From contig JAFRXL010000038.1 in assembly GCA_017441505.1 (NCBI GenBank), positions 1-43,408 of the forward strand: a stretch of 43,408 nt of DNA. The letters are read 5' to 3'. Positions 6,432 through 28,499 of the stretch are shown here, one piece after another (position 1 is the first letter of the stretch; each line of letters starts with the position of its first letter). The position numbers were made by a program, and so were the translations under genes. The stretch is from Ruminococcus sp. Lineage in GTDB: Bacteria; Bacillota; Clostridia; Oscillospirales; Ruminococcaceae. A model generated the notes under the pieces. It was not told where the DNA came from and searched no databases. It worked only from the letters and a program-made list of their open reading frames with translations.

Positions 6432-6486
6432 GTTTATATAGAATGGGTGATGTTATAAAATACTTTCTCTTACGTAAAAAGCTGCC

Positions 6487-6824
6487 TTGCTCGTATTAGT
6501 TATATTGAGAGCCATACTTCTATTGAGGGAAACCCTTTTGAAAAAGGGTTCTCCCTTAATCTTTTCTAAAGCCTTCGGCTTCACTTTGCCCCGGACAGGG
6601 TTCTTCTAAAATTAAAAATCCCGTAGTCGATCAACTACGGGAGAACCCTGTCCGGGGAAAAATCATACTGAAAGTCTTTGGAAAGGGGGGCGGGGTGACT
6701 CCCCGCAGTGTGGGGAGATGTCACATAGTGACAGAGGAGACCGCCTCAGTTAGAGGAAACCTTTCTTCAGAAAGGTTTGCCCCGATAAATAGTATATACT
6801 TCTAACATAACTCATACGAGCAAA
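6487..6824. repeat. Long palindromic intergenic repeat, copy 1 (family A)
   Basis: This fills most of the 467-base gap between yabR and the GGDEF gene. From outside in: outer arms TTGCTCGTATTAGTTAT (about 6488-6504) pair with the complement near 6800-6822 with two mismatches. A hairpin GGGAAACCCTTTT/AAAAAGGGTTCTCCC lies at 6527-6554. A central stem pairs CCCCGGACAGGGTTCT (6589-6604) with AGAACCCTGTCCGGGG (6642-6657). A third hairpin AAACCTTTC/GAAAGGTTT lies near 6758-6779. It shares the core from ATTGAGGGAAACCC to GTTTGCCCCGATA with the copy at 37.5 kb. I see no ORF in it. Confidence 0.85.
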
Positions 6825-15126: not shown

Positions 15127-15528
15127 ATGTACGAATCAAAAGTTAAATACTACTACGGAACAGGTAGAAGAAAGCACTCCGTTGCAAGAGTTAGAATCTA
15201 CCCAGGTTCTGGAAATGTTACTATAAACGGCAGATCTATCGATGATTACTTCGGTCTTGAGACACTCAAGCTCATCGTTCGTCAGCCTCTCGCTGTTACT
15301 GAAACTGCTGAGAAGTTCGACATCATCTGCACTGTTACCGGCGGCGGTGTTACCGGTCAGGCTGGTGCTATCAGACACGGCGTTTCAAGAGCTCTTCTCG
15401 AATTCGACCCTGAGCTCCGTCCAGCTCTCAAGAAGGCTGGCTTCCTCACTCGTGACCCAAGAATGAAGGAAAGAAAGAAGTACGGTCTCAAGGCTGCTCG
15501 TCGTGCTCCTCAGTTCTCGAAGAGATAA
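15127..15528 (+). CDS. rpsI: 30S ribosomal protein S9
   Basis: A 133-residue small-subunit protein. [49 protein letters not shown] and the basic tail [17 protein letters not shown], which reaches the decoding centre, are intact. GGAGG lies before the ATG. The last codons (AAG AGA TAA) lie in the attachment core of a mobile element, which leaves the coding sequence unchanged. Confidence 0.98.
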
Positions 15529-15529: not shown

Positions 15530-15616
15530 TTTATCCCTACTGGGAGTATTCAAAATCACGTATTTACGCTGTTTTGTTCGGTTTGGGTTTATCTGAAATA
15601 TGGTGAATTTCGGACG

Positions 15617-15647
15617 GTAACTAACACGTAACTAACGGGTAACTAAC
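15617..15647. repeat. Left arm-type repeats, three copies at 11-bp period
   Basis: GTAACTAAC begins at 15617, 15628 and 15639, exactly 11 bp apart (one helical turn). Two similar copies lie near the right end. These look like arm-type binding sites for the tyrosine integrase. Confidence 0.7.
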
Positions 15648-15719: not shown

Positions 15720-16136
15720 ATGAACAATGATAATAAAATCAAACACCTTGAAATGATTCAAGCTGTAATAAATCGTATGGCAAGTAATTCATTTATGCTT
15801 AAGGGATGGGCTGTAACACTTGTTGCTGGAATCATTGCATTATCAGCCAAGGATACTGATAAAATGTATTTTTTAGTAGCATATATACCAATAATCATTT
15901 TCTGGGGATTAGATTCTTATTATCTTCTTCAGGAAAGGCTATATAGATCTCTCTATAAGAAAATTTGTTCAACTGATGATAATAAAATTAATTTTTCTTT
16001 AGTTGCATCTAAAGAAGAATTTGGCAGCAACAAAAATAGTTTCGGAGCTTGTTTGTTATCTGGTACAGAATTATGGTTTTATCTTCCTTTAGCATTAGTT
16101 TGTGCCGGAGTAATATATCTTACTATAAAAAAATAA
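15720..16136 (+). CDS. Small three-helix membrane protein of a TIR module (copy 1)
   Basis: A 138-residue protein with three predicted membrane helices: about 28-43 (GWAVTLVAGIIALSA), 49-67 (YFLVAYIPIIIFWGLDSYY) and 116-135 (LWFYLPLALVCAGVIYLTI). A basic amphipathic stretch (LLQERLYRSLYKK) follows helix 2. It is clearly homologous to the protein at 22.1-22.5 kb, sharing NSFMLKGWAVTL and LDSYYLLQERLYR exactly. Both are beside TIR genes, so the inferred role is a membrane effector or partner of TIR signalling. I do not know its biochemical function. GAAAGG lies 11 bases before the ATG; a possible TTGTTA-17-TATCTT promoter would make the mRNA nearly leaderless. AT-rich relative to rpsI. Confidence 0.75.
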   Translation: MNNDNKIKHLEMIQAVINRMASNSFMLKGWAVTLVAGIIALSAKDTDKMYFLVAYIPIIIFWGLDSYYLLQERLYRSLYKKICSTDDNKINFSLVASKEEFGSNKNSFGACLLSGTELWFYLPLALVCAGVIYLTIKK

Positions 16137-16166
16137 GGGCTATATAGATTACAAGAAGGTGATAGA

Positions 16167-16976
16167 ATGTTTGCAAAATTCAACTATAGTCCATCAGATT
16201 ATTTTTATAATAAAATTCTCAATCCATATTTAACAAAAGGAACTGACCTTTATATCAAACATGAAGAAGAGGTTAAAGATTGTTTATCTCAGTACATAAA
16301 TGAAAATGGCATTATAAACGGTTCAGATTTAAAAGAACATTGGTTTTCGATTTCTGATAAGGATATTTTTATATCACATTCGCACAAGGATATAAATAAA
16401 GTAAAGGCGTTTGCAGGCTGGTTATATGATACTTTTGGTTTAGAAGCCTTCATTGATTCTTGCTCATGGGGATACTGTGATAAATTACTAAAAAACATAG
16501 ACAACAAATATTGCTACAATCCCAAAAGCAAAACATATGATTATGATTTACGCAACTATACAACAAGTCACGTTCATATGATGTTATCTACCGCTTTAGC
16601 CGAAATGCTAAACAAAACTGAATGTGTTATTTTTTTTAATACTCCAAATTCAATAAGCATGAGCGATGAACTTACCAAAATCAAAAAAAGTGAAGCAACT
16701 CTATCACCTTGGATTTATTACGAATTGTCAATGATGACATTAATAAAATCGACACAACCCAGAAAAATTATTTTAGAACACTCTGCATATAGTGATATTA
16801 ATATAAAATATGATGTTTCCAAAATTCTTAAAGAGCTTACACAAATAAATGATTCTACTTTGTTGGAATGGAGAGACAAATGGAATAATCGCCCTATTAT
16901 GTGCAAGGAAGAAGCTTTAGACGTTTTATATGAAATCATCTATCCAAAATCTTCAAAACAAATGCAAAACCGCTGA
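16167..16976 (+). CDS. TIR-domain protein (copy 1)
   Basis: A 269-residue soluble protein. The TIR domain begins at about residue 64 (DKDIFISHSHKDINKVKAFAGWLYDTFGLEAFIDS), has an insert of about 35 residues, and continues to about 195. The putative catalytic Glu is E186 in SPWIYYELSMM, matching the position of the NADase Glu in other TIR enzymes. The first 60 residues and last 70 are unassigned. It lies 30 bases after the membrane protein, so they are probably co-transcribed. Bacterial TIR proteins of this type cleave NAD+ or make cyclic ADP-ribose-like signals in phage defence; activity here is inferred. Strongly AT-rich, suggesting recent transfer. Confidence 0.8.
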   Translation: MFAKFNYSPSDYFYNKILNPYLTKGTDLYIKHEEEVKDCLSQYINENGIINGSDLKEHWFSISDKDIFISHSHKDINKVKAFAGWLYDTFGLEAFIDSCSWGYCDKLLKNIDNKYCYNPKSKTYDYDLRNYTTSHVHMMLSTALAEMLNKTECVIFFNTPNSISMSDELTKIKKSEATLSPWIYYELSMMTLIKSTQPRKIILEHSAYSDINIKYDVSKILKELTQINDSTLLEWRDKWNNRPIMCKEEALDVLYEIIYPKSSKQMQNR

Positions 16977-16999
16977 GAGAATAAATCCCTCAGCGGTTT
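16967..16999. terminator. Bidirectional terminator between TIR and integrase genes
   Basis: Perfect 11-bp stem AAACCGCTGAG/CTCAGCGGTTT. It overlaps the end of the TIR gene and separates it from the convergent integrase gene; T-runs occur on both sides. Confidence 0.8.
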
Positions 17000-17007
17000 C
17001 TTTATGC

Positions 17008-18057
17008 CTATATTTTATTGATAGCGTCAAGCAACTCCTGCACATTAACGTGCGTATACACCTTTTCAGTTAGTGACATTGCACCTGAGTGACCAACGAT
17101 CTTCTTTATCAGCGTAGGTGATACCTCTTTCTCGGTCATCATTGAGATGCAGGTGTGACGGGTATCATGAGGCTTATGAGTGCTGCCGATCAGTTCCATA
17201 ACAGGTGTCCAGTAGGAATCGTAATAGTTGCGATAGATAAACTGCTTGCCGTCGGGAGTATGGAGCAGATACTCGTTGCCGTCCTCATACCATTTCTTGA
17301 AGAATGGATAAGTCCTGTCATGTATCGGAACAACACGGATACCGCTTTCGGTCTTGCTCTCCACAACTTTGAAGCAATGCTTCTCGATCTTGACGTTCTC
17401 TCGTTTCAGGTCGAGCAGCTCAGACACACGTACTCCGCTGTATATCAGCATAAGGACGATCTGAGCGTAGATGTTGCTTTCCTGCACCCACAGAGCATCT
17501 ATTTCTTCCTTGCTGAAAGGAGAACGATCTGTCTTGTTTGGGTTCTTGTCTTTGAATTTGAGTATATCCACATACTCAGAGTAGTCTTTCGTACATATCT
17601 CGTACTTCATAGCATACTCATACATCTGATTAAGCAATACTTTCAGCTTACGGAGCGTTGGATAGTTCTTTCCGCAGTTGTCCACAACACCCTGCAAATC
17701 CGTCAGCTTTAGCTCCTTGAATACCCTGTCGTGTAGGATTTCACAGGTGTTATAAGAAGCTTTATAGCCTTTGGCGTTGCTGTCGGAGATAGTCGGAAAC
17801 TTCTCAGCCGACCATTTCTCAAAGACTTCCGCAAAAGTGATCTTGGAGGCTTCAATGTCATACGGATTCTTATTATACTCCATGAGCATTTCAAGCCCTT
17901 TCGCCCTGGTTGGAGCATAGCCGATTGTGATATACTGCTGTTTCCGTTTGCCTGTCTCGGTGTCAATGTCCCAGCCGACAGTCTTACGGACGATGTAAGG
18001 ATTACGCCTGTTGCCTGACAGCTTATAAACCGTTCCGACGCCGTTAGCTAACTTCAT
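17008..18057 (-). CDS. int: Tyrosine site-specific integrase
   Basis: A 349-residue phage-type recombinase. It has an N-terminal arm-binding region with Arg/Lys (1 to about 65), a SAM-like core-binding domain (about 70-165) and a catalytic domain (about 180-349). The catalytic residues are visible: Arg in YSGVRVSELLDL, HDTRHT (His-x-x-Arg), GHSGAMSLTEKVYTH (second His and the nucleophile Tyr). It should recombine the rpsI attachment site. It starts 14 bases inside the end of the XRE gene, so regulator and integrase are translationally linked. Confidence 0.95.
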   Translation of the reverse strand: MKLANGVGTVYKLSGNRRNPYIVRKTVGWDIDTETGKRKQQYITIGYAPTRAKGLEMLMEYNKNPYDIEASKITFAEVFEKWSAEKFPTISDSNAKGYKASYNTCEILHDRVFKELKLTDLQGVVDNCGKNYPTLRKLKVLLNQMYEYAMKYEICTKDYSEYVDILKFKDKNPNKTDRSPFSKEEIDALWVQESNIYAQIVLMLIYSGVRVSELLDLKRENVKIEKHCFKVVESKTESGIRVVPIHDRTYPFFKKWYEDGNEYLLHTPDGKQFIYRNYYDSYWTPVMELIGSTHKPHDTRHTCISMMTEKEVSPTLIKKIVGHSGAMSLTEKVYTHVNVQELLDAINKI

Positions 18058-18817
18058 TCTGCTTCTCCTCCTTCAACCGTACCACCTCACGGCAGGTGTC
18101 AATGATCTCGGAAATGCGGTCAATCTGTGTTTTCAGTTCGTCAAGAGGCAGCGGAGCTTCTTCCTGTTCGTCCTTGTTGACGGTGAACTTCTTGAAATCG
18201 CTGATAATTGACGATGTAAAGCCTTTGACGGTCATGATAAGGTAGTTCTCGAATTGCAGATACTCGCTTATGGACATATAGCACATGGTCTTCCCTGCCT
18301 TTTTCAAAGCGATAACATATCCTTCAGAAAAGAGCTGCAACAGTTCAGGGGGCATATCGTACACAGGCTGACCCTCGTCTGTCTGAGAAAGAATGAAGTA
18401 ATCGCTCCATACGTCACGGGAAGCCTTGATCTCCAATGTGTAGCCGAGGTTAGCAAGCACCGTTGAAAGTACATTTTGGTTACGCTTACCTACAAATGTG
18501 GCAGTATCGAGCAGTACAGCCTGCGATTTCAGGCTGTCGAAGCTGTCACCCATAAGGTGATTGAACTTCTGTAAGGCTTCATAATACTCCTCGTCATAGC
18601 TGTCGGCATAGACAGCTATATCCTCAGCAGGCACATCATAGAACTCAGCGAGCATATTGATATAGCTGTTTGTGATAGTAGCCTTACCGTGTTCGATGCC
18701 ATTATAGTGTGTACGTGAAGCACCAAGGGCTTCTGCAAGCTGATTCTGCGATAATCCCCGTTCGGTACGCAGAGCAACGATCTTCTCTCTTGTTTTTTCC
18801 TGATCTATCGTTTTCAT
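18044..18817 (-). CDS. XRE-family regulator of the element
   Basis: A 257-residue protein. Residues about 8-66 form an XRE helix-turn-helix (KIVALRTERGLSQNQLAEALGASRTHYNGIEHGKATITNSYINMLAEFYDV). The middle is unassigned, and the last 35 residues are a likely coiled coil (DELKTQIDRISEIIDTCREVVRLKEEKQ). GGAGGG precedes the ATG. It is transcribed with the integrase from a consensus promoter that faces and overlaps the promoter of the excisionase/primase genes, so it is the likely switch protein keeping the element quiescent. Confidence 0.88.
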   Translation of the reverse strand: MKTIDQEKTREKIVALRTERGLSQNQLAEALGASRTHYNGIEHGKATITNSYINMLAEFYDVPAEDIAVYADSYDEEYYEALQKFNHLMGDSFDSLKSQAVLLDTATFVGKRNQNVLSTVLANLGYTLEIKASRDVWSDYFILSQTDEGQPVYDMPPELLQLFSEGYVIALKKAGKTMCYMSISEYLQFENYLIMTVKGFTSSIISDFKKFTVNKDEQEEAPLPLDELKTQIDRISEIIDTCREVVRLKEEKQNEVS

Positions 18818-18868
18818 TGTTGTCCCTCCACTAATTATGAATAAATTGTTACTGTACTATTTTTATCA

Positions 18869-18885
18869 AGACAATTGAAATGTCT
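18869..18885. promoter_or_regulatory. Dyad covering the -35 of the rightward promoter
   Basis: AGACA (18869-18873) and TGTCT (18881-18885) form an inverted repeat around ATTGAAA. It covers the rightward -35 (18875-18880) and is a candidate operator for the XRE protein. Confidence 0.5.
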
Positions 18886-18903
18886 GGAGATGTATGGTAC
18901 AAT
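18875..18903 (+). promoter_or_regulatory. Rightward promoter for excisionase-like and primase genes
   Basis: TTGAAA (18875-18880), a 17-bp spacer and TACAAT (18898-18903). Its -10 overlaps the -10 of the opposing promoter. Confidence 0.75.
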
Positions 18904-18930
18904 TATATCAGAATCGCAGAGAGATGTCAA
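18902..18930 (-). promoter_or_regulatory. Leftward promoter for XRE-integrase
   Basis: On the minus strand, TTGACA (18925-18930), 17 bp and TATAAT (18902-18907); both boxes are perfect. It faces the rightward promoter head-on with overlapping -10 boxes, so polymerase can occupy only one at a time. Confidence 0.82.
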
Positions 18931-18990
18931 GAGGCACCCTGAGATTTTTTCACACGATTAGAGATAGATATATAATCGGAAGGAGACAAA

Positions 18991-19245
18991 ATGAATAATA
19001 CTTCTAATTCTCTGCCGGCTTTTACAGGCAGAAACGTACCGATCAAGGAGATCGCACAGGCAACAGGCAAAGACCCTCAGTACATCAGAATCGGTTTACA
19101 GAAAGGCATTTTCCGTTTCGGATATGCTTTTAAGAAGGACGGTTCAAGCGAGTATAACTATTTATGCCCTGACAAGAAGGTGTGGGAGGACTTAGGCTAT
19201 TTCAGTTCAGAAGCGGAGGGCAGCGATGCAGGAAATGATGAATGA
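18991..19245 (+). CDS. Excisionase-like small DNA-binding protein
   Basis: An 84-residue protein with VPIKEIAQATGKDPQYIRIGLQKGIFRFGYAFKKDGSSEYNYLCP, a winged-helix MerR/Xis-like pattern common in small proteins near element integrases. AAGGAG precedes the ATG. It overlaps the primase gene start by 20 bases and is its upstream operon partner. It could be a recombination directionality factor or a replication accessory protein. Confidence 0.7.
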   Translation: MNNTSNSLPAFTGRNVPIKEIAQATGKDPQYIRIGLQKGIFRFGYAFKKDGSSEYNYLCPDKKVWEDLGYFSSEAEGSDAGNDE

Positions 19246-20902
19246 TACTGCGGAGCTGATTATAGAAGATAACAACGGGGAAACTCTCCCCGATGCACTT
19301 CCCGACAGTGAACTGCCCGAAGAAGAGGAAAAGTCGGAGTTTGAAAAGCTCAAAGAAGAACTATCGGCGGTAACGTATGATGATATACTTAACAGCACAG
19401 CTCCATATGAAAAGATACTCGCTCTGCCTGACGAATTTGCAATATCGCAGTATATCACGGCATTCAGGCAGATAGCCAAGAAGTTCAAGCTGACAGCAGA
19501 CTTTGACAACCTTGTTGCTCCATATAAGGACAAGGCGTTACGGCAGCTCAAAGAAGCAGAGCATCAGGAAAAGAAAGAGGATAAGAGTAAATATCCGAAG
19601 TGGTGGGACGGCTCACAGGTCAATGAGGACGTATTCTGTACAGAGCTTCTCTCTCAACACACGCTGTACTGCATCAACGGACTGTTTTACGATATTGACG
19701 GCGAGTACCTTACCACAGAGCTGAGCAAAGTCATATACGAACGTATCAAGCCCTATGTCACAAAGAATGTGGCTGACCGCACCAAGCGTCTTGTGGAGGC
19801 TATGAAGATAAAATGCTATCGTCCTGCACCTGTTCCCGATGAAAGAACTATACACCTGAAAAACGGCACACTCCATCTGGCGGAAGGACATTTTGTTTTC
19901 TCACAGGGAAAGCAATTCACGATGAACCGCCTGGGGATAGAATACCGTTCCGATGCCCCCAAGCCCGAACGCTGGCTCAGCTTTGTTCAGGAGCTTCTTA
20001 ATGAGCAGGATGTACTAACCTTGCAGGAGTATATGGGGTATCTTATGATACCGTCAACAAGGGCGCAGAAAATGCTGATGATCTCAGGTAACGGCGGTGA
20101 GGGAAAGTCACGCATCGGCAAGGTGCTTTTTGAGATCATGGGGTATAAGAATTCTGTAAGCGGAAGTGTGTCAGGTCTGGACAACGGAACTGCCGCCCGA
20201 TTCAACAAGGTCAAGCTCCTCGGAAAGCTCTGCATGATAGATGATGATATGGATATGTCGGCACTTGAAAAGACAGAGTTTCTCAAACAGCTTATCACAG
20301 CAGAAATACCGATGGAGATCGAGCCGAAAGGCAGTCCATCGTTTCAGGCATTACTGTACACAAGAGTTATCGCATTCGGGAACAATCCTATCTCTGCTCT
20401 TTATGACCGCAGTCAGGGCTTCTTCCGCAGGCAGATGATATTGATCGCAAAGCTCGTTCCGAAAGACCGAGTCAGCGATAAGCATCTGACAGAAAAACTT
20501 CTTGCTGAAAAAGAAGGAATATTCCTCTGGTGCCTTGAAGGATTGGAACGGCTTATCGCCAATGATTTTGAGTTTACGATCAGCGATCAGGCGAAAGAAA
20601 ATCTCAGGCGAAGCGAACGTGAATGCAACAATATCATTCCCTTTATGGAGAGCGAGCATGACTTCAAGTTTGACGCTTCGGGGCAGATACATTCTCAGGA
20701 ATTATACTGGGCATATCAGAGCTGGTGCAGGCTCAACAGCCTTGATGAATTATCCAGGAGAACATTCACAGGTTATTTGAAATCTCACGCCGAAGATTAT
20801 AACATCACTTACACGGAAAATGCCGTCAATGAGCAAGGCAGGAGAGCCAGAGGATTCCTCGGAATGAGATACACCTATCGTCCGCCGACGATCATGTACT
20901 GA
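19226..20902 (+). CDS. P4-type primase/SF3 helicase (D5-like)
   Basis: A 558-residue replication protein. The acidic first 45 residues are low complexity. A D5-N/P4-type region follows, then a superfamily-3 helicase core with Walker A SGNGGEGKSRIGK (about residue 290), Walker B LCMIDDDMD (about 335), sensor VIAFGNNP (about 385) and FRRQMILIAK, ending in a winged-helix-like C-terminus. It should unwind and initiate replication of the excised element. GGAGGG lies 5 bases before the ATG at 19226. A clustered TACAC repeat region lies directly downstream. Confidence 0.88.
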   Translation: MQEMMNDTAELIIEDNNGETLPDALPDSELPEEEEKSEFEKLKEELSAVTYDDILNSTAPYEKILALPDEFAISQYITAFRQIAKKFKLTADFDNLVAPYKDKALRQLKEAEHQEKKEDKSKYPKWWDGSQVNEDVFCTELLSQHTLYCINGLFYDIDGEYLTTELSKVIYERIKPYVTKNVADRTKRLVEAMKIKCYRPAPVPDERTIHLKNGTLHLAEGHFVFSQGKQFTMNRLGIEYRSDAPKPERWLSFVQELLNEQDVLTLQEYMGYLMIPSTRAQKMLMISGNGGEGKSRIGKVLFEIMGYKNSVSGSVSGLDNGTAARFNKVKLLGKLCMIDDDMDMSALEKTEFLKQLITAEIPMEIEPKGSPSFQALLYTRVIAFGNNPISALYDRSQGFFRRQMILIAKLVPKDRVSDKHLTEKLLAEKEGIFLWCLEGLERLIANDFEFTISDQAKENLRRSERECNNIIPFMESEHDFKFDASGQIHSQELYWAYQSWCRLNSLDELSRRTFTGYLKSHAEDYNITYTENAVNEQGRRARGFLGMRYTYRPPTIMY

Positions 20903-20911
20903 GCAACAGTT

Positions 20912-21088
20912 TTACACGGTTCGATACACACTTTTATACACACCTGAAAAGAAAGAATATCGGGGCTTACACACTTACACAGATATTCCGTTTCTTTGAT
21001 ATGGGAAAGCCACAGAAATATTTTTTCTTTTTTGATGATAAAACTTCGGTCAGTTCTGCCGTTGCGTGTGAAGTGTGTAACCGTGTAA
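20912..21088. repeat. Clustered TACAC repeats, candidate replication origin
   Basis: In the 411-base gap after the primase, TACAC occurs on the + strand at about 20914, 20925, 20937, 20969 and 20977. GTGTG, GTGTGTAA and GTGTAA lie on the other orientation at 21066, 21073 and 21083. The first and last are a 10-bp inverted pair, TTACACGGTT (20912-20921) and AACCGTGTAA (21079-21088). This is iteron-like and lies where a P4-type primase could act. No gene is seen in this gap. Confidence 0.45.
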
Positions 21089-21204
21089 ATTGAATAGCTG
21101 TCAGAAAAGAAAAATGACAAGTTTGACAGGCATAAATATGCCCGACATTCTCTTCTGAAAAAGAGAAAAATGAAACTACGTCCGCAGGGGCGTATGGAAG
21201 AGTA

Positions 21205-21276
21205 GCAAGCACGGTATGGTGTGGGTACAAAAACTGAAAACCACACCATACAAAGCTTGTGAGAGGGACACCCCTC
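21205..21276. other. Candidate oriT beside mobC
   Basis: Perfect 11-bp inverted repeat GTATGGTGTGG (21214-21224)/CCACACCATAC (21241-21251), extended by CAAGC (21206-21210)/GCTTG (21255-21259). A second hairpin GAGGG/CCCTC follows at 21263-21276. It lies 40 bases before mobC, the usual place for an origin of transfer. Confidence 0.6.
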
Positions 21277-21313
21277 AGACCCCGATTTTTAACATACGAA
21301 AGAGAGGATTTTT

Positions 21314-21676
21314 ATGAGAAAAAGTGAGAAGAAAAAGCAGGTAATAAAGCGTGACCGCTACCTGAAAATAAGAGTGACCGAGGAAGAGCTTGAAGCATTC
21401 AAACGCAAGTTCAAAAACAGCGGTATGCGAACATTTTCAGGCTTTGTCAGAGCAATGATATTTGAAGGCTACATCGTTCATTTCAACGAAGAGGAACTTC
21501 GTGAAATAAACCGTCTGGTAGCTAACATTTCCAACAACATCAATCAGATCATTCTTCACGTCAGCCGAGACGATGATTCTTTCGACAGTGACATTGCTGA
21601 GATCAAAGAAAAGATGAATCGGATATGGCAACCATTGAACTTCTTTCAGACTAAGGTTTTGCAGTTGAAGCACTGA
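21314..21676 (+). CDS. mobC: MobC-family mobilization protein
   Basis: A 120-residue protein. The N-terminal basic ribbon-helix-helix (RDRYLKIRVTEEELEAFKRKFKNSGMRTFSGFVRAMIFEGYIV) is followed by the MobC signature INRLVANISNNINQIILHV and a C-terminal helix. MobC proteins bind oriT and help a relaxase nick DNA. The relaxase gene that normally follows is absent, so transfer would need a relaxase in trans. AGAGAGG precedes the ATG. Confidence 0.87.
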   Translation: MRKSEKKKQVIKRDRYLKIRVTEEELEAFKRKFKNSGMRTFSGFVRAMIFEGYIVHFNEEELREINRLVANISNNINQIILHVSRDDDSFDSDIAEIKEKMNRIWQPLNFFQTKVLQLKH

Positions 21677-21821
21677 GAAAAAACAGAGCGCATTGCACTG
21701 GATTTTTCTCTCACTTTGCTGCGCATTTCACAAGAATTATTACAATCATTCCGCAGAGCTGGACTCCGGAATATTTATCCGCTATAATGGATTCACAACA
21801 ATAATTTATGGAGGCGATTTT

Positions 21822-22034
21822 ATGTTTAGAATACCCGAACTCGCAATGCCGAGAACTCGCACCGTCACAACAATCTGCAACGGTAAGAAAGAAGTCTGGG
21901 ACGATTACGAAGAAGCCAAGGATTTTTTTCTCAGGCAGATGATGACTACCGAGGGTGAGGAGCGTGACCGAGCAGAGTGCATTTACATTCAGCTCATTCA
22001 TGGGCTGGAGGAGTGTTCGGACGAGGATGAATAA
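21822..22034 (+). CDS. Small accessory protein common in Firmicute mobile elements
   Basis: A 70-residue acidic protein, MFRIPELAMPRTRTVTTICN at its start and ERDRAECIYIQLIHGLEECSDEDE-like at its end. I recognise the sequence type from conjugative and mobilizable elements of gut Firmicutes but know no function. GGAGG (21810-21814) lies 7 bases before the ATG, which I prefer over longer in-frame extensions. Confidence 0.75.
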   Translation: MFRIPELAMPRTRTVTTICNGKKEVWDDYEEAKDFFLRQMMTTEGEERDRAECIYIQLIHGLEECSDEDE

Positions 22035-22039
22035 TATAA

Positions 22040-22072
22040 AATGGAGCGTTGCCGCAGTGGCAGTGCTCCATT
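22040..22072. terminator. Bidirectional terminator between the mob genes and the defence operon
   Basis: AATGGAGC/GCTCCATT stem with inner TGCC/GGCA pairing, followed by TTGTTTTT on the + strand and TTTTAT on the minus strand. It ends both convergent operons. Confidence 0.8.
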
Positions 22073-22076
22073 GTTT

Positions 22077-22484
22077 TTAAATATGTGTTATTATGATTAT
22101 TGCTGTACAAGCAACCGTTAATGGAAAATAAAACCCAAATTCAGTTTTTGACTTTAAACATGACCAAAAACTATTTGTTTTACTTCCAAACACAGTTGTG
22201 GTTGCTTTCATGGAAAAATCAATGTCAGCTTCTGCAGTTTGTCTAACTTTATCATACAAAGCCCTGTATAATCGTTCTTGAAGAAGATAATAAGAGTCTA
22301 ATGCCCAAAAGGCAATAACTGGAATATATACAATTATAAAATAAAACTTATTTGTATCCTTACTCGCCAGTGCAAAAATACCTGCTATTAAGGTTACTGC
22401 CCATCCTTTCAGCATAAAGGAATTGTTAGCCATACGAGTTATAACGTCTTGTATCATTTGTAGATGTTGCATTTTCTTCTCCAT
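22077..22484 (-). CDS. Small three-helix membrane protein of a TIR module (copy 2)
   Basis: A 135-residue homologue of the protein at 15.7-16.1 kb, with helices at about 26-42 (GWAVTLIAGIFALAS), 47-65 (FYFIIVYIPVIAFWALDSYY) and 114-133 (FGFYFPLTVACTAIIIITHI). The block between helices 2 and 3 is also conserved (LLQERLYRALYDKV, then IDFSM and FGSKTNSFWSCL). It is the last gene of the restriction/TIR operon; GAGGT precedes the ATG, 14 bases after the ThsB-like stop. Two independent links to TIR genes on one element suggest it is a functional part of the system. The function is inferred. Confidence 0.75.
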   Translation of the reverse strand: MEKKMQHLQMIQDVITRMANNSFMLKGWAVTLIAGIFALASKDTNKFYFIIVYIPVIAFWALDSYYLLQERLYRALYDKVRQTAEADIDFSMKATTTVFGSKTNSFWSCLKSKTEFGFYFPLTVACTAIIIITHI

Positions 22485-22498
22485 AGCTATACCTCTTT

Positions 22499-22990
22499 TT
22501 ATTTATTATGCGCTTTTGCAGCATTTTCTATCCAAGTTCCAAGATTTGCGTATCCATCATCGTATGTATAATCGTATAAACCATCACACACATTATCAAA
22601 GTATGCAGGAGAGCCATCTGGATAATGTCCTATAACAGTATGTGGATTTCCCTTTATGGAGCACTTTTGCGTAATCATATCTTTGATGTTATGAATATAT
22701 ACGCCTATAACACCATTTCCTCTTTTCAGACTTTCACAGATTTCGTACTGAACAAAAGGTCGATTTAAAGTCTCACTGCCGATTAATACAACTGTTACGG
22801 AGGTACCATTTAATTGCTTATCAATCCAATTATGAACTGCAGTTGTTCCTGTTCTCTTTATTTGTTCAAAATCAGCTTTATCAACAAATCCTGCAGCTTC
22901 TTTTCCTTGTGTGACCCAACTATTTCTAACCGTCATAGATCTATTGATGTCATTATCATAATGAAAACTGAAAAAGACTCTACGTGCCAT
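22499..22990 (-). CDS. ThsB-like TIR protein (DUF1863/MTH538 type)
   Basis: A 163-residue single-domain protein. RRVFFSFHYDNDINRSMTVRNSWV at the N-terminus, IDKQLNGTSVTVVLIGSETLNRPFVQYEICESLKRGNGVIGVYIHN in the middle and the length match the TIR-like family that includes Thoeris ThsB. The putative catalytic Glu is E83 in RPFVQYEI. ThsB proteins sense phage and make a cyclic ADP-ribose-type signal for ThsA; no ThsA (SIR2-SLOG or membrane-macro) gene is present here. AAGGAGG lies before the ATG. Confidence 0.85.
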   Translation of the reverse strand: MARRVFFSFHYDNDINRSMTVRNSWVTQGKEAAGFVDKADFEQIKRTGTTAVHNWIDKQLNGTSVTVVLIGSETLNRPFVQYEICESLKRGNGVIGVYIHNIKDMITQKCSIKGNPHTVIGHYPDGSPAYFDNVCDGLYDYTYDDGYANLGTWIENAAKAHNK

Positions 22991-23002
22991 ATCAAAACCT
23001 CC

Positions 23003-23593
23003 TTAATAAATGCTGCCTTTAGACAGCCACTGTTTTAAAGAACAATATATACTTTTTCCATCTTTAGGTGTAACCACATAGTATCCTCTTTCAATTTGTT
23101 GCCCGCTGCTATATTTCTCAGTCCCGTCAGAATATTTAATGTATGGGTATATCTGCATATATTCATTTCCTTTGTACTCATAATCGTATGTCCCTTTGGG
23201 CTTCAATGGAAAAATTGCAATCCTATCTGGGAATTTATTTGCATCTCCAAAACCTAATTCCCAATTACACCATTTTGATTCAATTGCGCCATTTGTGGCA
23301 AGAAGAATAAATCTATCACAGCCTCGAATCCTATCCTTAAGATTTATCGCTGTTTCTGCTGATGTTGTTATTGGCATAGAGGAATCCTTGCTATCAATAT
23401 ATGCCTTTACCTGATACTCATCTTCCAAAAATCCCAATACTCCTTGCAGATCTTCGAGATCATCATGTTTATGTGAAATAAATACTGTCGTTTTTGCCGA
23501 ATACTGAGAAATTTCTGATATAGGGGCGGTAGCACTATTCAAAGATCTTTTAGAATATCTGCTAAAAGCACCTTGCTCAAATATTATGCTCAT
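23003..23593 (-). CDS. TIR-domain protein (copy 2)
   Basis: A 196-residue protein. The TIR domain spans about residues 34-140 (TTVFISHKHDDLEDLQGVLGFLEDEYQVKAYIDS at the start) with putative catalytic E112 in SKWCNWELGFGD. The C-terminal 55 residues are unassigned. Its ribosome site GGAGGG lies inside the last codons of the restriction endonuclease gene, so it is translationally coupled to the restriction operon. It is followed 12 bases later by the ThsB-like gene. Having a TIR and a ThsB-like protein together resembles multi-ThsB Thoeris loci. Confidence 0.82.
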   Translation of the reverse strand: MSIIFEQGAFSRYSKRSLNSATAPISEISQYSAKTTVFISHKHDDLEDLQGVLGFLEDEYQVKAYIDSKDSSMPITTSAETAINLKDRIRGCDRFILLATNGAIESKWCNWELGFGDANKFPDRIAIFPLKPKGTYDYEYKGNEYMQIYPYIKYSDGTEKYSSGQQIERGYYVVTPKDGKSIYCSLKQWLSKGSIY

Positions 23594-23600
23594 AAATCAA

Positions 23601-25307
23601 TCACCCTCCGCAAACTATATTTGATCGCTCATTTACTACATTTTCAATATACCTCATCCAAGCCGGAGCCTCCAGATTATCACGCTCAGTCTCGCACTGG
23701 AGTATCAGATCTCGCAGATGTTCGGGACGAGCCTGCTTGCCCTCAAACATTGAAACAAAGTGTCTGCGGAACTGCTCCAAAGATAGGGGAACAATATCAA
23801 GTCTCTGCTTTACATCGCCTTTGGCATACCAAATACCGTGACGGAATGTTTCAGCGGTGTTGGTATCAATCCTGATTGCAAGGAAAAGGCCGTACACGGG
23901 TTTATTATAGTTCAATACCGCATCAGAAACATGACGGCGGACAGGTTCGCCTTCCATTGCCTCCTGCCTTGATGATGTGGACATTGTAACCTCTGTCAGT
24001 ATCATGAAGTCCTCAAACTCACAGTACAGATCACCTTTTCCACCGCCTGCTGCGGTTACGGGTAAAAAGTCCGCATCAAGTCTGAAACCACGAACTTCAT
24101 ACGGCTTGTTCACCATATGATCTATAGCAAGTGCAGCTCTCCACAGTGTCCACTCAAAGTACGCTGGCGTCTCGTCTTTCGGAATTTCGATAGCGTTATC
24201 TTCATCATAAACGAGCTTTCCACCGCCCTTAATAAGCAGAGACATATAATCGGCAATTTCCTGCCACTGATTGCACTGATCGTTAGCATACTGTATCTCA
24301 TCTGTTTTAGCGAGAGTATCTTCCAGACGCTGCCTTGCAATATTGATCTCAGCAGGCGTATCAAGTGGAAGATCGGAAATATCATATACGATATGACGCT
24401 CTTTCATCTGCTTCTTCAGATCTTCAAGTAATGTTTTGGCTACGTCGATATTATCCGTTGGCAAAGGTGCGCCTGAGCATAACTGTTTATAAGCATCCAT
24501 AAGAGGTTCCGATGTTGCTGTTTCTTTTGCGAGCTTCTCAGCGAGTAAATGCTTTGCAGGCACGATCATAATACCTCTGCCCTTACGCTGAAACATTCCA
24601 GAAATACGGAGATAACGCATATTCATGTCACTATAATCAAGGAAGTTGTCAGCTTTTTTATCGTAATGCTTTCCACGCTCCTTGATCTCATTTTTATCAA
24701 AAGTACGCTTTGCCGGAGCCTTTGCTCTGCGCTGTCTGAGATCAAGAATATGGTCAACAACCTTTGAGAGGTCATAGCTTGGATTAGTTGTATGTCCCCA
24801 CAAAGCAAATTCTATACGGCTCATTTCCGTAGAGCCTGTCCGCTTCTCCAATTCCAGCATGATAGCAAGCATCCAGCGGAGCGGAGAGAAATAGGTTGTT
24901 TTATCCGGCATTTCAAACTGCTCAACACTCATTGCTCTGAGAAAACACTCCTGAACCGCAGGAAAAGTATCTGCTTTAAGGAATGTCCTACCGAACGGAG
25001 TTATATCGTCCATAGCTCCGAGGTCTTCCTGTTTACCATCCTTTTTGCTGACTTGCGGATAGATATATCCATTCTTTGCAAACATCAAACGCCACTTACG
25101 GGCATGACTGCCTGATGCATCTTTGCCACTTTCGTTTTGAATAATGCCCTCTTTATTCAGCAGATTCATAAAGCCGATTTCATTATCTCTGCCGTGAAGC
25201 TTGCCGACAAATGCAGATTTGGCATATACTGCAAGACCTTCCTGTATTCTGTTAGGATTTCTTAAACCTGTATTACCAACAAGCCAAATCTTTATGTTTT
25301 CTTCCAT
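23601..25307 (-). CDS. AlwI-family Type II restriction endonuclease
   Basis: A 568-residue protein resembling AlwI-type endonucleases (AlwI cuts outside GGATC). IWLVGNTGLRNPNRIQEGL at the start and the block GGGKGDLYCEFEDFMILTEVTMSTSSRQ (about residue 420) are family-like; Asp and Glu of the latter are the likely metal ligands of the nuclease. The specificity here is unknown. ATG at 25307 with GGAG 8 bases upstream; an in-frame TTG six codons earlier overlaps the methyltransferase stop and was rejected. It is preceded by its methyltransferase and followed by TIR genes. Confidence 0.83.
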   Translation of the reverse strand: MEENIKIWLVGNTGLRNPNRIQEGLAVYAKSAFVGKLHGRDNEIGFMNLLNKEGIIQNESGKDASGSHARKWRLMFAKNGYIYPQVSKKDGKQEDLGAMDDITPFGRTFLKADTFPAVQECFLRAMSVEQFEMPDKTTYFSPLRWMLAIMLELEKRTGSTEMSRIEFALWGHTTNPSYDLSKVVDHILDLRQRRAKAPAKRTFDKNEIKERGKHYDKKADNFLDYSDMNMRYLRISGMFQRKGRGIMIVPAKHLLAEKLAKETATSEPLMDAYKQLCSGAPLPTDNIDVAKTLLEDLKKQMKERHIVYDISDLPLDTPAEINIARQRLEDTLAKTDEIQYANDQCNQWQEIADYMSLLIKGGGKLVYDEDNAIEIPKDETPAYFEWTLWRAALAIDHMVNKPYEVRGFRLDADFLPVTAAGGGKGDLYCEFEDFMILTEVTMSTSSRQEAMEGEPVRRHVSDAVLNYNKPVYGLFLAIRIDTNTAETFRHGIWYAKGDVKQRLDIVPLSLEQFRRHFVSMFEGKQARPEHLRDLILQCETERDNLEAPAWMRYIENVVNERSNIVCGG

Positions 25308-25321
25308 AATGAATTCTCCTA

Positions 25322-27202
25322 TCAATACCCTACAAAGAGGTATTCCTGAACAGAGTTTCTATGTGTTTTGGCATCAGCCTGATTTCCGAACGCATATTTA
25401 TAGTCTACGGGAACCACTTCAACGTGTTCTTTATATTTTTTCATTAACGATACCATATCCTCTTGTGTCGGCAGACTGTTTGAGGAATATGATACTATAA
25501 GGATACTGTCAGCGAATTTGCTGAACAACTTATCAAACGCATTGTATGCACCGTCTTTTGTTGAGAATGGTGTAGGATATGATTTGAATTTTTTTGTTTT
25601 TGTATGCTCCTGTATCTCTACGCCTTTCCAGTCACGTGCAAGCCCTTCGATAAAATGGTATCTGCGAACATATTCATTATCCGACAGCGGTGAATAGTAT
25701 GGGGGATCTATATACACAAGATCGGGATTGATGCCTGTCAAAGCCATTGCATCACCGTTAACGGATTTGTTAGACTTATGATTATCAAAGACAGCATTAT
25801 TAACTGCTTCAACAGCTTCAAGAAACTGCTGAGAAAGCGATTTCTGCAAGTCTTTTCGACCGTCATCATACCTATGCCCCGTGTATGTGAATATTCCACG
25901 AGGTCTTTTCTTTGTGCAGGCACGAATAAGAGCTGTCATTGCAATAGCTTTCTTATACTGATTCTCTATCGCTGCTATGTTTGTGCGAAGTATATCAATC
26001 AGTTCGTTTTCCTCGTCTGTATAATACAAATCCTTAAATGTATCCGATACGAAATGATCTACATCACATTGCTGTATCAAGAGCTTTTCAGCTTCTTCAA
26101 TTGGAAGTGTTACAGTATTGTTTTCAACCATAGCTTTCGTAAACGTTGCCGACATAGCCATATAATCGTTGCTGATTACTGTTTTGCCGTGAGATTTGAA
26201 CATATATCCAACAATTCCAGAACCGGAAAATAGATCGACAGCCGTATCAAACTCAAAGCGTGAAGCTACATTCCATATCTCACCGAGCAGCTTTCTCTTA
26301 GAACCCATAAATCTTGTCGGAGGATATAACGATACCTGATCGGATAGAGGTTCACTTTTAGGAGCCTTTTTCTTTTCAGGCGGTATAGTAACAATAACAT
26401 CTTCGCCTTTTCTGGTATCACCATGACAGGAGATGTGGCGCTTTGTTTGAATTACCTCTATCTTATACTGCTCATAGAGCTGATGAACAAGGGGATGATT
26501 AGAATTAGTGAGGATAACATAGCAGCCACGTTCATGAAGCGTACCAATCATCTTAGCAAGCTCAACATGATCGTCCTCATAGAATTGTTCTTTAGTATAT
26601 CTCTTGAAATCCGAGTTTTCGGATATTGGGAGATACGGCGGATCCAAAAATACAAAATCGCCTGGCTGAGCGTAATGTTCAAGAACAAGAATATAATCAC
26701 CGCAAAGAATGTTAGCTTTTTTCAGAGCTTCGGAAGCAAGACGAAGTGCGTCTATATCGCAAATCTTAGGATTCTTGTACTTGCCGTACGGAGTATTGAA
26801 CTGCCCATTCCTGTTTACACGGTATAAGCCGTTGAAACAAGTTTTATTCAGATATATTGTTCTTGCGGCAGCTTCTGCTTTTGGAAGAGAATGCCAATCG
26901 AGAGAACGCACCTCATAGAACATCTCACTTGTGTTCTCATATTTCTGCAAGCACTCGATAACATCATCAACATTGTGTGCAACCTGGAGATACATATTGA
27001 TCAGCTCAGGATTGCTGTCTGCAATGATAGCATTTTCAGGCTTCAAAGAAAAGAATAAAGCTCCACCACCGAAAAACGGCTCTATATATCTGCCGTATGT
27101 TTTTGGAACTCTCGGCATAAGCTCACCAAGCATCTGCGTTTTACCGCCTGCCCACTTCAAGATAGGCTTTGCTACAGGAGCTTTAACTGTTTTAACGCTC
27201 AT
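25322..27202 (-). CDS. Fused double adenine-N6 DNA methyltransferase (M.FokI-like)
   Basis: A 626-residue protein with two complete methyltransferase halves. The first (about 12-270) is D12-class: PILKWAGGKTQMLGELMP, FFGGGALFF and the catalytic FLDPPYLP near residue 184. The second (about 300-626) has VDLFSGSGIVGYMFK near 320 and YIDPPYYSPL near 495. Two domains let one protein modify both strands of an asymmetric site, as in FokI-type systems, which fits the AlwI-like endonuclease downstream. It starts at TAATG, sharing a base with the stop of the small XRE gene. Confidence 0.9.
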   Translation of the reverse strand: MSVKTVKAPVAKPILKWAGGKTQMLGELMPRVPKTYGRYIEPFFGGGALFFSLKPENAIIADSNPELINMYLQVAHNVDDVIECLQKYENTSEMFYEVRSLDWHSLPKAEAAARTIYLNKTCFNGLYRVNRNGQFNTPYGKYKNPKICDIDALRLASEALKKANILCGDYILVLEHYAQPGDFVFLDPPYLPISENSDFKRYTKEQFYEDDHVELAKMIGTLHERGCYVILTNSNHPLVHQLYEQYKIEVIQTKRHISCHGDTRKGEDVIVTIPPEKKKAPKSEPLSDQVSLYPPTRFMGSKRKLLGEIWNVASRFEFDTAVDLFSGSGIVGYMFKSHGKTVISNDYMAMSATFTKAMVENNTVTLPIEEAEKLLIQQCDVDHFVSDTFKDLYYTDEENELIDILRTNIAAIENQYKKAIAMTALIRACTKKRPRGIFTYTGHRYDDGRKDLQKSLSQQFLEAVEAVNNAVFDNHKSNKSVNGDAMALTGINPDLVYIDPPYYSPLSDNEYVRRYHFIEGLARDWKGVEIQEHTKTKKFKSYPTPFSTKDGAYNAFDKLFSKFADSILIVSYSSNSLPTQEDMVSLMKKYKEHVEVVPVDYKYAFGNQADAKTHRNSVQEYLFVGY

Positions 27203-27681: not shown

Positions 27682-28446
27682 TTGAATAACATTGAAAAAG
27701 GTGCATTTTTGAAGTTGTTTAACCGAAACGGATATGTGTTAAATTTTTCCACTAACGACTTTAATTGTTTTACAATGGAAAGTATCGGCGTTCCCTTGTG
27801 TCAAAAATACGGATTGTCTAAAGGTGGATCGCTAACTGCCTATTGTAGCGAAGCAACCGAAACAGATCTTATAAAACTCTTTTCAGATTTGCTTGAATAC
27901 TACGAATTACACTTATTATCATCGTCCTATAATGAGGGAGAATACAGCAATCTTTATGATAAATGTAAGATAATAATAGAAAGAGAATCAAAAAATAATG
28001 TTAAACTATCAACGCCTGCGATCACCTGCGTTAATAGAGACTATATAAAAGATATCTCAATAAGAGCAATGCAAGATGTTGATAATCAAAATTATGATAG
28101 TGCCTTAACAAAATCAAGAACGCTTTTGGAAGAAGTTTTTTGTTATGTTATTGAGCAAAAGGGCGATACTCCGTCTGATAAAGGCGATATAGGTAAGCTT
28201 TACAAGCAAGTTAAAGATCTTTATAATATGCACACCGATGGCAATATGGATAAGCGAATCAATACCTTGTTATCGGGTTTAGAGAAGATTGTTAGTTCAA
28301 TAGCTGAAATGAGAAATAAAGCAAGTGATTCTCATGGTGTTGGAGCCAATAGAATAACTATCAACGATCATCACGCTCGATTGTTTGTTAATTCATCAAT
28401 GACAATGGCAGATTTTATTTTGTCTGTAGCTGAAAAACAAAACTAA
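27682..28446 (+). CDS. Abortive infection protein with Abi_C domain
   Basis: A 254-residue soluble protein. The C-terminal half (about 110-250) matches the Abi_C type: ITCVNRDYIKDISIRAMQDVDNQNYDSALTKSRTLLEEVFCYVIEQKG and MRNKASDSHGVGANRITINDHHARLFVNSSMTMADFI. The N-terminal half is unassigned. The start is a TTG at 27682 with GGAGG (27669-27673) 8 bases upstream. It has its own promoter, divergent from the restriction operon. AT-rich like the TIR genes. The family is linked to phage exclusion; the mechanism here is unknown. Confidence 0.82.
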   Translation: MNNIEKGAFLKLFNRNGYVLNFSTNDFNCFTMESIGVPLCQKYGLSKGGSLTAYCSEATETDLIKLFSDLLEYYELHLLSSSYNEGEYSNLYDKCKIIIERESKNNVKLSTPAITCVNRDYIKDISIRAMQDVDNQNYDSALTKSRTLLEEVFCYVIEQKGDTPSDKGDIGKLYKQVKDLYNMHTDGNMDKRINTLLSGLEKIVSSIAEMRNKASDSHGVGANRITINDHHARLFVNSSMTMADFILSVAEKQN

Positions 28447-28453
28447 ATAATAG

Positions 28454-28480
28454 CCCTGCATTGTCACAAAACAAGCAGGG
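28454..28480 (+). terminator. Weak terminator-like hairpin after the abortive-infection gene
   Basis: CCCTGC/GCAGGG with a loop of about 15 bases, just after the stop codon; it lacks a T-run. The second arm abuts the right arm repeats. Confidence 0.4.
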
Positions 28481-28499
28481 TAACAAACACGTAACTAAC
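28480..28499. repeat. Right arm-type repeats
   Basis: GTAACAAAC at 28480-28488 and GTAACTAAC at 28491-28499, 11 bp apart. They match the left-end repeats in sequence, orientation and period. Confidence 0.7.

Follow-up and report, generated by a model that had tools for sequence, protein, structure and literature searches.

What does a bacterium gain from keeping two quite different sets of TIR genes close together, each beside a copy of the same small membrane protein, and what might such a protein do for a TIR enzyme? The question is raised by a contig of Ruminococcus sp. (JAFRXL010000038.1, assembly GCA_017441505.1), whose whole analysed stretch of 43,408 nucleotides is referred to here as the window. 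Two modules in it join TIR proteins to a membrane protein of about 135 residues, here called M50A. The M50A-TIR unit is already listed as a defence candidate in PADLOC-DB of 2023. The evidence described below indicates a real and widespread two-part unit that is Thoeris-like in its logic but has an effector of its own, and it is reasonably likely that the unit is an anti-phage system in which a nucleotide made by the TIR protein activates M50A as the effector, stopping the infected cell. A sequence-only reading had placed five open reading frames (ORFs) in two separate loci of TIR and membrane-protein genes, and all five were found at the coordinates claimed:

15720-16136, + strand: M50A-left, membrane protein of 138 residues (PADLOC PDC-M50A, E 2.2e-47)
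16167-16976, + strand: left TIR protein (class "beta"), 269 residues, 30 bp past M50A-left (PADLOC ThsB PDLC00430, E 2.8e-71)
22077-22484, - strand: M50A-right, membrane protein of 135 residues, last gene in the right module (PADLOC PDC-M50A, E 1.9e-48)
22499-22990, - strand: ThsB-like TIR protein (class alpha), 163 residues (PF08937, E 4.9e-23; PADLOC ThsB, E 1.9e-65; PDC-M50B, E 1.2e-53)
23003-23593, - strand: second right-hand TIR protein, 196 residues (TIR_2, E 3.8e-8, over the cut-off; PADLOC ThsB PDLC00423, E 9.9e-84)

The two membrane proteins are identical at 79 of 132 positions (60%, E 2e-62), and the motifs NSFMLKGWAVTL and LDSYYLLQERLYR, said by the same reading to be shared exactly, are present letter for letter in both. 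The TIR proteins had been described as the more divergent partners. This was borne out in two comparisons, between the left and 196-residue TIRs and between the two right-hand TIRs, with a single significant stretch of 32 residues at 41% in the former and no significant alignment in the latter. Probably the left and right modules operate in parallel, each sensing through a different TIR.

Whether the pairing extends beyond this contig was assessed by a tally of M50A homologues lying beside TIR genes. A profile of the M50A family found 424 stretches in the genome_contigs collection, the best 80 being retained, and 27 viral contigs; with a further 8 loci from plasmids or phages (L003-L010), these 107 loci contain 116 M50A ORFs in total. 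A TIR neighbour was defined as an ORF matched by iterated TIR profiles at E<=1e-3 within 400 bp. By this definition 91 of the 116 M50A ORFs have a TIR neighbour (59 of 80 in genomes, 23 of 27 in viral contigs and 9 of 9 on plasmids and phages), as compared to 4 of 493 control ORFs taken from the same loci (at least 100 residues long, more than 2.5 kb from M50A, and called mechanically, with spurious ones included). Since the genome scan was keyed on one peptide motif (NS[FQ]x[IL]KGW...), only the best 80 of 424 stretches were kept and some loci are near-duplicates, the linkage fraction holds for close relatives. Among these, the homologues mostly have TIR neighbours, and a known unrelated function for the membrane-protein family did not turn up; the opposite outcome in either respect would have counted against the sequence-only reading. 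The arrangement is operon-like, with 89 of the 91 TIR neighbours on the same strand as M50A, a median gap of 10 bp and 86 gaps of at most 35 bp, while the order of the two genes varies, M50A coming before or after the TIR gene. In the two opposite-strand exceptions (L035 and L044) the neighbour is a protein of the TIR-SLOG type.

M50A is not confined to bacteria: archaea, viral contigs and plasmids carry it too, and M50A-TIR pairs were found in Bacillota, Bacteroidota, Pseudomonadota, Campylobacterota, Actinomycetota, Cyanobacteriota, Thermodesulfobacteriota and Archaea. The M50A-TIR pairing is widespread and far beyond chance. It might still be supposed that the TIR gene and the membrane gene are unrelated passengers sharing mobile elements by chance, as both are carried here by what is probably an integrative element, together with restriction-modification and Abi_C genes. 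This explanation is rejected by the excess over the control ORFs, and the short gaps, the common strand and the recurrence in seven bacterial phyla and Archaea also speak against it; its probability must be very low indeed.

Relatives of M50A-right are present in 142 of 72,556 plasmid records and in 3 of 50,697 phage records, all three from Vibrio phages. In one 14-kb Vibrio phage of the Vinavirales (PQ189363.1; L007:1347-2635), TIR and M50A genes directly follow a gene annotated as integrase-like, and the record's own note labels its TIR as ThsB. In eight extra plasmid loci (L123-L130) a TIR gene adjoins M50A in every case. A separate sample of 199 host-related genomes contains five M50A carriers, host included; of the four others, two have M50A beside a beta TIR (L118, L119), one has no TIR within the short stretch examined (L120), and one has a degraded M50A and no TIR by profiles (L121). 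The last, from the same genus, has stop codons in M50A (L121:1501-1716) and lies about 30 bp after an ORF of 403 residues that is SEFIR/TIR-like by eye only.

The 25 M50A ORFs that the tally left unpaired are not uniform. In seven, a TIR was missed by the profiles or lies slightly beyond 400 bp (L027, L041, L046, L075, L084, L086 and L116), the neighbour in L086 being a CAP12-type TIR. In four, a TIR-like gene adjoins M50A (L062, L066, L068 and L069, the last by eye only), and four lie at a contig end (L019, L032, L080 and L115). For the other ten no TIR-fold neighbour was found (L015, L020, L026, L034, L042, L054, L081, L089, L096 and L109); an ORF of 638 residues 2.3 kb downstream in L026 is TIR-like by eye and matches no Pfam family, and a TIR_2 match below the cut-off lies about 2.4 kb off in L081. 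Where a classical TIR would be expected, three of the adjoining genes encode other TIR-fold, NAD- or nucleoside-processing families, and two actinobacterial plasmids, from Rhodococcus and Mycolicibacterium, encode single HIT-M50A polypeptides, directly after a TIR gene, in which M50A is the C-terminal part:

L062:5416-6708: DUF4062 protein beside M50A
L066:5444-6733: DUF4062 protein beside M50A
L068:4469-4951: Nuc_deoxyri_tr2, nucleoside deoxyribosyltransferase-like protein beside M50A
L123:2545-3435: HIT-M50A fusion, HIT by Pfam (E 2.6e-23)
L124:2599-3567: HIT-M50A fusion, annotated as HIT protein

The sequence-only reading had taken the membrane protein to have three helices. An AlphaFold2 monomer of M50A-right (mean predicted local distance difference test (pLDDT) score 89) has helices at residues 2-40, 46-82 and 113-134, matched by three hydropathy peaks at about 22-41, 47-68 and 114-135. 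Across 98 aligned M50A sequences K26, F59, D63 and E70 are invariant, and R17 and W28 (97/98 each), N21 (95/98), R74 (93/98) and Y77 (91/98) nearly so. The almost invariant polar set of R17, N21, K26, D63, E70, R74 and Y77 is carried by helices 1 and 2. The N-terminus of M50A may well face the cytoplasm, an orientation that fits the N-terminal position of HIT in the fusions; the family-average charge difference is a weak indicator of orientation.

Both window copies fall below every Pfam and NCBIfam cut-off, and no macro domain was found in either (Pfam, E<=1). DUF2270 is the best viral fold match (E 0.48) and also has the best Pfam E among M50A relatives (0.00062, among the 25 of 57 Pfam families listed), so that a distant kinship between M50A and DUF2270 is possible. 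Neither window copy matches a Pfam SLATT model at E<=1; the NCBIfam model SLATT_1 gave E 0.091 for one of 98 relatives, and SLATT family searches of the relatives were silent everywhere, as were their controls. Kinship to the 8xMP family (PF24838) was considered and is weak and unsupported: 10 of 98 relatives match (best E 0.0074), M50A-right scores 12.1 bits against a cut-off of 30, and set against a single 8xMP sequence the probability came out at 4%. In one locus (L131:1417-2312) an 8xMP-family protein is followed 14 bp on by a small protein whose start is TIR-like by eye and which has no NCBIfam match at E<=0.001.

On the enzyme side, residues 1-127 of the ThsB-like TIR align to the solved ThsB1 chain 9b7d (E 5.6e-27) with the Glu of its YEI motif in register, and this alpha-class TIR is also related to 6lhy, again with the Glu aligned. 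By its PF08937 match, its alignment to ThsB1 and its catalytic Glu, it is a TIR of the ThsB kind. The left protein matches Pfam TIR_2 below the cut-off (E 0.0086); its structural model (pLDDT 78.2) found no match in the PDB at E<=0.001, with only scattered low-probability TIR rows, and the profile of its class matched no solved sequence at E<=0.01. Its motifs and its PADLOC ThsB match nevertheless suggest that it is a TIR protein. The Glu said to occupy a matching place in all three window TIRs is present at each site and conserved among relatives, being kept in 28 of 29 aligned beta sequences (in the motif SPWIYYEL of the left TIR), 55 of 55 alpha, 17 of 17 gamma and 20 of 20 delta.

By best profile, the nearest partners of M50A are alpha in 45 cases, beta in 21, delta in 16 and gamma in 9, labels that are approximate because the iterated profiles used to assign them drifted into one another. 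A family-scan alignment of 96 TIR-fold proteins (87 of 129 profile matches, all three TIRs of the window and six further neighbours) includes 63 that match PF08937 and 44 that match TIR_2 (E<=0.001). The SLOG models LD_cluster2 and STALD are each matched by 6 of the 96, and among the NCBIfam Thoeris type III models ThcA is matched by 6 and ThcB4 by 9 (E<=1e-5). Three TIR-SLOG proteins near M50A, scanned singly, each match both ThcB4 (TIR) and ThcA, all below the cut-off:

L012:2774-4615: TIR-SLOG protein
L035:2839-4704: TIR-SLOG protein
L063:2632-4515: TIR-SLOG protein

The three are 613, 621 and 627 residues long.

How, then, would such a unit act? In the favoured reading the TIR protein would sense infection and convert nicotinamide adenine dinucleotide (NAD+) into an ADP-ribose-type nucleotide, which would bind the cytoplasmic base of M50A formed by helices 1 and 2 with their conserved polar residues. 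M50A would then assemble or open in the inner membrane and dissipate the membrane potential, halting the infected cell. The strongest argument is comparative. One effector family is paired with several TIR classes that have little in common outside a catalytic core, which favours a common small-molecule product over a conserved interface, and judged by their sequences the M50A partners, including other folds that process NAD or nucleosides, appear to share chemistry rather than surface. The HIT fusions, the SLOG matches among TIR-fold partners and the conserved charged residues of the three predicted helices also count in its favour. Some observations weigh against it. For 10 of the 116 M50A ORFs, none of the ten at a contig end, no TIR-fold neighbour was found; M50A has no recognised ligand-binding domain, and its PDB fold search returned no match at E<=0.001; and the TIR class labels rest on profiles that merged into each other. 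Furthermore, DUF4062 is reported to hydrolyse NAD+ in complex with the phage portal (PMC13174449, whose text does not mention membranes), so that signal production is not a necessary property of a TIR-fold partner.

The last point bears on a rival in which no diffusible signal is needed, TIR and M50A forming a complex at the membrane by direct contact. The TIR protein might oligomerise on infection and gate M50A by touch, or M50A might cluster the TIR at the membrane and NAD+ be destroyed there. The tight operon-like pairing would suit such a complex, the TIR might dock on the conserved cytoplasmic base of M50A, and some TIR-fold proteins are described as depleting NAD+ after binding a phage protein (PMC13174449, PMC12847820); the NAD+ hydrolysis by DUF4062 with the portal fits direct contact too. 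Against this, TIR classes with differing N- and C-terminal regions, DUF4062 and deoxyribosyltransferase-like proteins would all need an identical interface, and the window modules themselves pair divergent TIRs with M50A proteins that are 60% identical. Direct contact is, on balance, rather unlikely. Less probable still is the converse arrangement, in which M50A is a restraint or immunity protein that holds the TIR inactive or shields the host from its activity. The variable gene order could be read in this way, as it resembles that of some two-gene toxin units, but invariant charged residues in or near the membrane helices would be expected in a working effector more than in a tether, and the transmembrane components of anti-phage systems already known are believed to act as effectors (PMC9122126). 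A restraining role seems improbable.

The proposal that a TIR-made nucleotide activates M50A can be extended. M50A might be a general membrane effector for the whole TIR superfold, reading a small nucleotide at the membrane without a separate sensor domain, a suggestion that is tentative and less likely than its restricted form. Classical TIRs, DUF4062 and deoxyribosyltransferase-like enzymes would have been swapped in front of one three-helix protein, and the HIT-fused versions would bind or degrade the nucleotide as a built-in timer. If so, the unit would amount to a Thoeris type whose effector is very small and whose signal may still await description. Should even the restricted proposal be true, a protein of about 135 residues, whose window copies lie below Pfam and NCBIfam cut-offs, would be the executioner of a TIR immune pathway and a very simple means of converting a nucleotide alarm into membrane damage, and the DUF4062 and deoxyribosyltransferase-like pairings and the HIT fusions would give handles on the identity of the signal.

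The relation to Thoeris deserves closer comparison. Thoeris signals include 3' cyclic ADP-ribose (3'cADPR, type I), His-ADPR (type II) and N7-cADPR (type IV), according to PMC12847820, and in ThsA a SLOG domain recognises the cADPR signal (PMC9503650). The alpha TIR is clearly related to the solved ThsB1 of type I, with its Glu aligned; the effector of type I is a SIR2-SLOG ThsA, whereas the gene beside the TIRs here encodes a membrane protein. The statement that no ThsA is present agrees with the absence of matches to the STALD SLOG model (PF18185) at E<=1 in the host genome, which is 79.55% complete. Neither SIR2 nor SLOG was found among ten window proteins (Pfam, E<=1), the SIR2 search being limited to the window. 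Type II likewise combines a TIR enzyme with a membrane effector, clustered by the nucleotide (PMC11204291, PMC12847820), but its ThsA is a transmembrane-macro protein, whereas the window M50A has three predicted helices and no recognised soluble ligand domain. For type III, the best window TIR scores 22.4 bits against a ThcB4 cut-off of 220 (NCBIfam), and ThcA is represented in the host genome by only a 15.8-bit scrap with stop codons (cut-off 110). For the caspase-like effector of type IV, a search limited to the window found no peptidase family among the ten proteins (Pfam). The host genome has two further neighbouring TIR_2 matches over the cut-off on a different contig (G000:C38:16359-18311), in frames of 713 and 563 residues.

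Other precedents share the logic of the unit. Genes for TIR proteins beside two-transmembrane (2TM) SLATT proteins were noted in Firmicute phages in 2022, with a membrane effector regulated by an ADP-ribose derivative predicted (PMC9503650). The TIR likewise stands beside a small membrane protein there; as stated above the window M50A match no Pfam SLATT model, the phage SLATT genes being compared by description only. A three-gene system of TIR and transmembrane proteins from the P2-like phage AC1, once cloned, defends E. coli C from lambda, LF82_P8 and P2 (PMC9122126), and is likened to the present unit by description, not by sequence. Two chromosomal E. coli loci checked for a link to AC1 are surrounded by insertion sequences, with no P2 genes named in 11-13 kb.

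In PADLOC-DB 2.0.0 (2023), the model PDC-M50A is matched by all 98 aligned membrane proteins (E<=1e-5). Of the window TIRs, the ThsB-like protein matches PDC-M50B, whereas the left and 196-residue TIRs match ThsB models and not PDC-M50B. PDC-M50 is listed as a phage-defence candidate (PDC) without description; such candidates were found by guilt-by-embedding and most await experimental proof (PMC12988326). No paper using the name PDC-M50 was found in a name search of the literature, and topic searches turned up none on this M50A-TIR pair. A preprint of December 2025 on TIR-based systems, cited in PMC13174449, may cover it. Since the unit was already listed, the value of the present analysis lies in mechanism and comparative evidence rather than in first sight, the evidence added being the DUF4062 and deoxyribosyltransferase-like replacements and the HIT fusions.

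The two modules had also been assigned to one mobile element, and the surrounding genes make such an element probable:

15127-15528: S9-like gene, presumed to be rpsI from inspection of its sequence by eye
15616-15636, + strand: left attachment-like repeat, 21 nucleotides, 87 bp past rpsI, with 20 of 21 bases as in 28479-28499
17008-18057, - strand: tyrosine integrase (PF00589, E 4.7e-19)
18044-18817, - strand: helix-turn-helix regulator (HTH_3, E 4.3e-11)
19226-20902, + strand: P4-family primase/helicase (TIGR01613, E 9.9e-38, over the cut-off)
21314-21676, + strand: NikA-like mobilisation protein (PF21983, E 1.7e-14)
23601-25325, - strand: AlwI-type restriction endonuclease, cargo adjoining the right module (PF09491, E 4.3e-103)
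25322-27202, - strand: type II DNA methyltransferase, cargo (PF02086, E 6.2e-85; PADLOC MTase_II, 1115.8 bits)
27682-28446, + strand: Abi_C protein of the abortive-infection type, right-end cargo (PF14355, E 3.4e-22)
28479-28499, + strand: right attachment-like repeat, 21 nucleotides, one mismatch to 15616-15636

The integrase, the regulator, the primase and the NikA-like protein all sit between the left and right modules. The stretch of about 12.9 kb between the near-identical repeats, which comprises both TIR modules, the AlwI-type restriction-modification pair and the Abi_C gene, is taken as one integrative element with probable borders. Three GTAACTAAC units follow one another at a spacing of 11 bp, and the left repeat spans the first two; GTAACTAAC occurs four times in the window, as compared to 0.29 expected. 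With the Abi_C gene immediately within the right repeat, the element may hold four defence units, namely the two TIR modules, the restriction-modification pair and Abi_C.

The order of rpsI, repeats, M50A, TIR and integrase recurs in an uncultured Ruminococcus metagenome-assembled genome (L018), with 80.1% DNA identity over 2407 bp. In a further locus (L017:4894-6505) M50A and TIR follow rpsI and no integrase is present up to the end of the contig stretch; the sequence following the left repeat recurs there just past the TIR gene (about 6459-6505), and this M50A-TIR pair may be a minimal cassette mobilised by an integrase encoded elsewhere.

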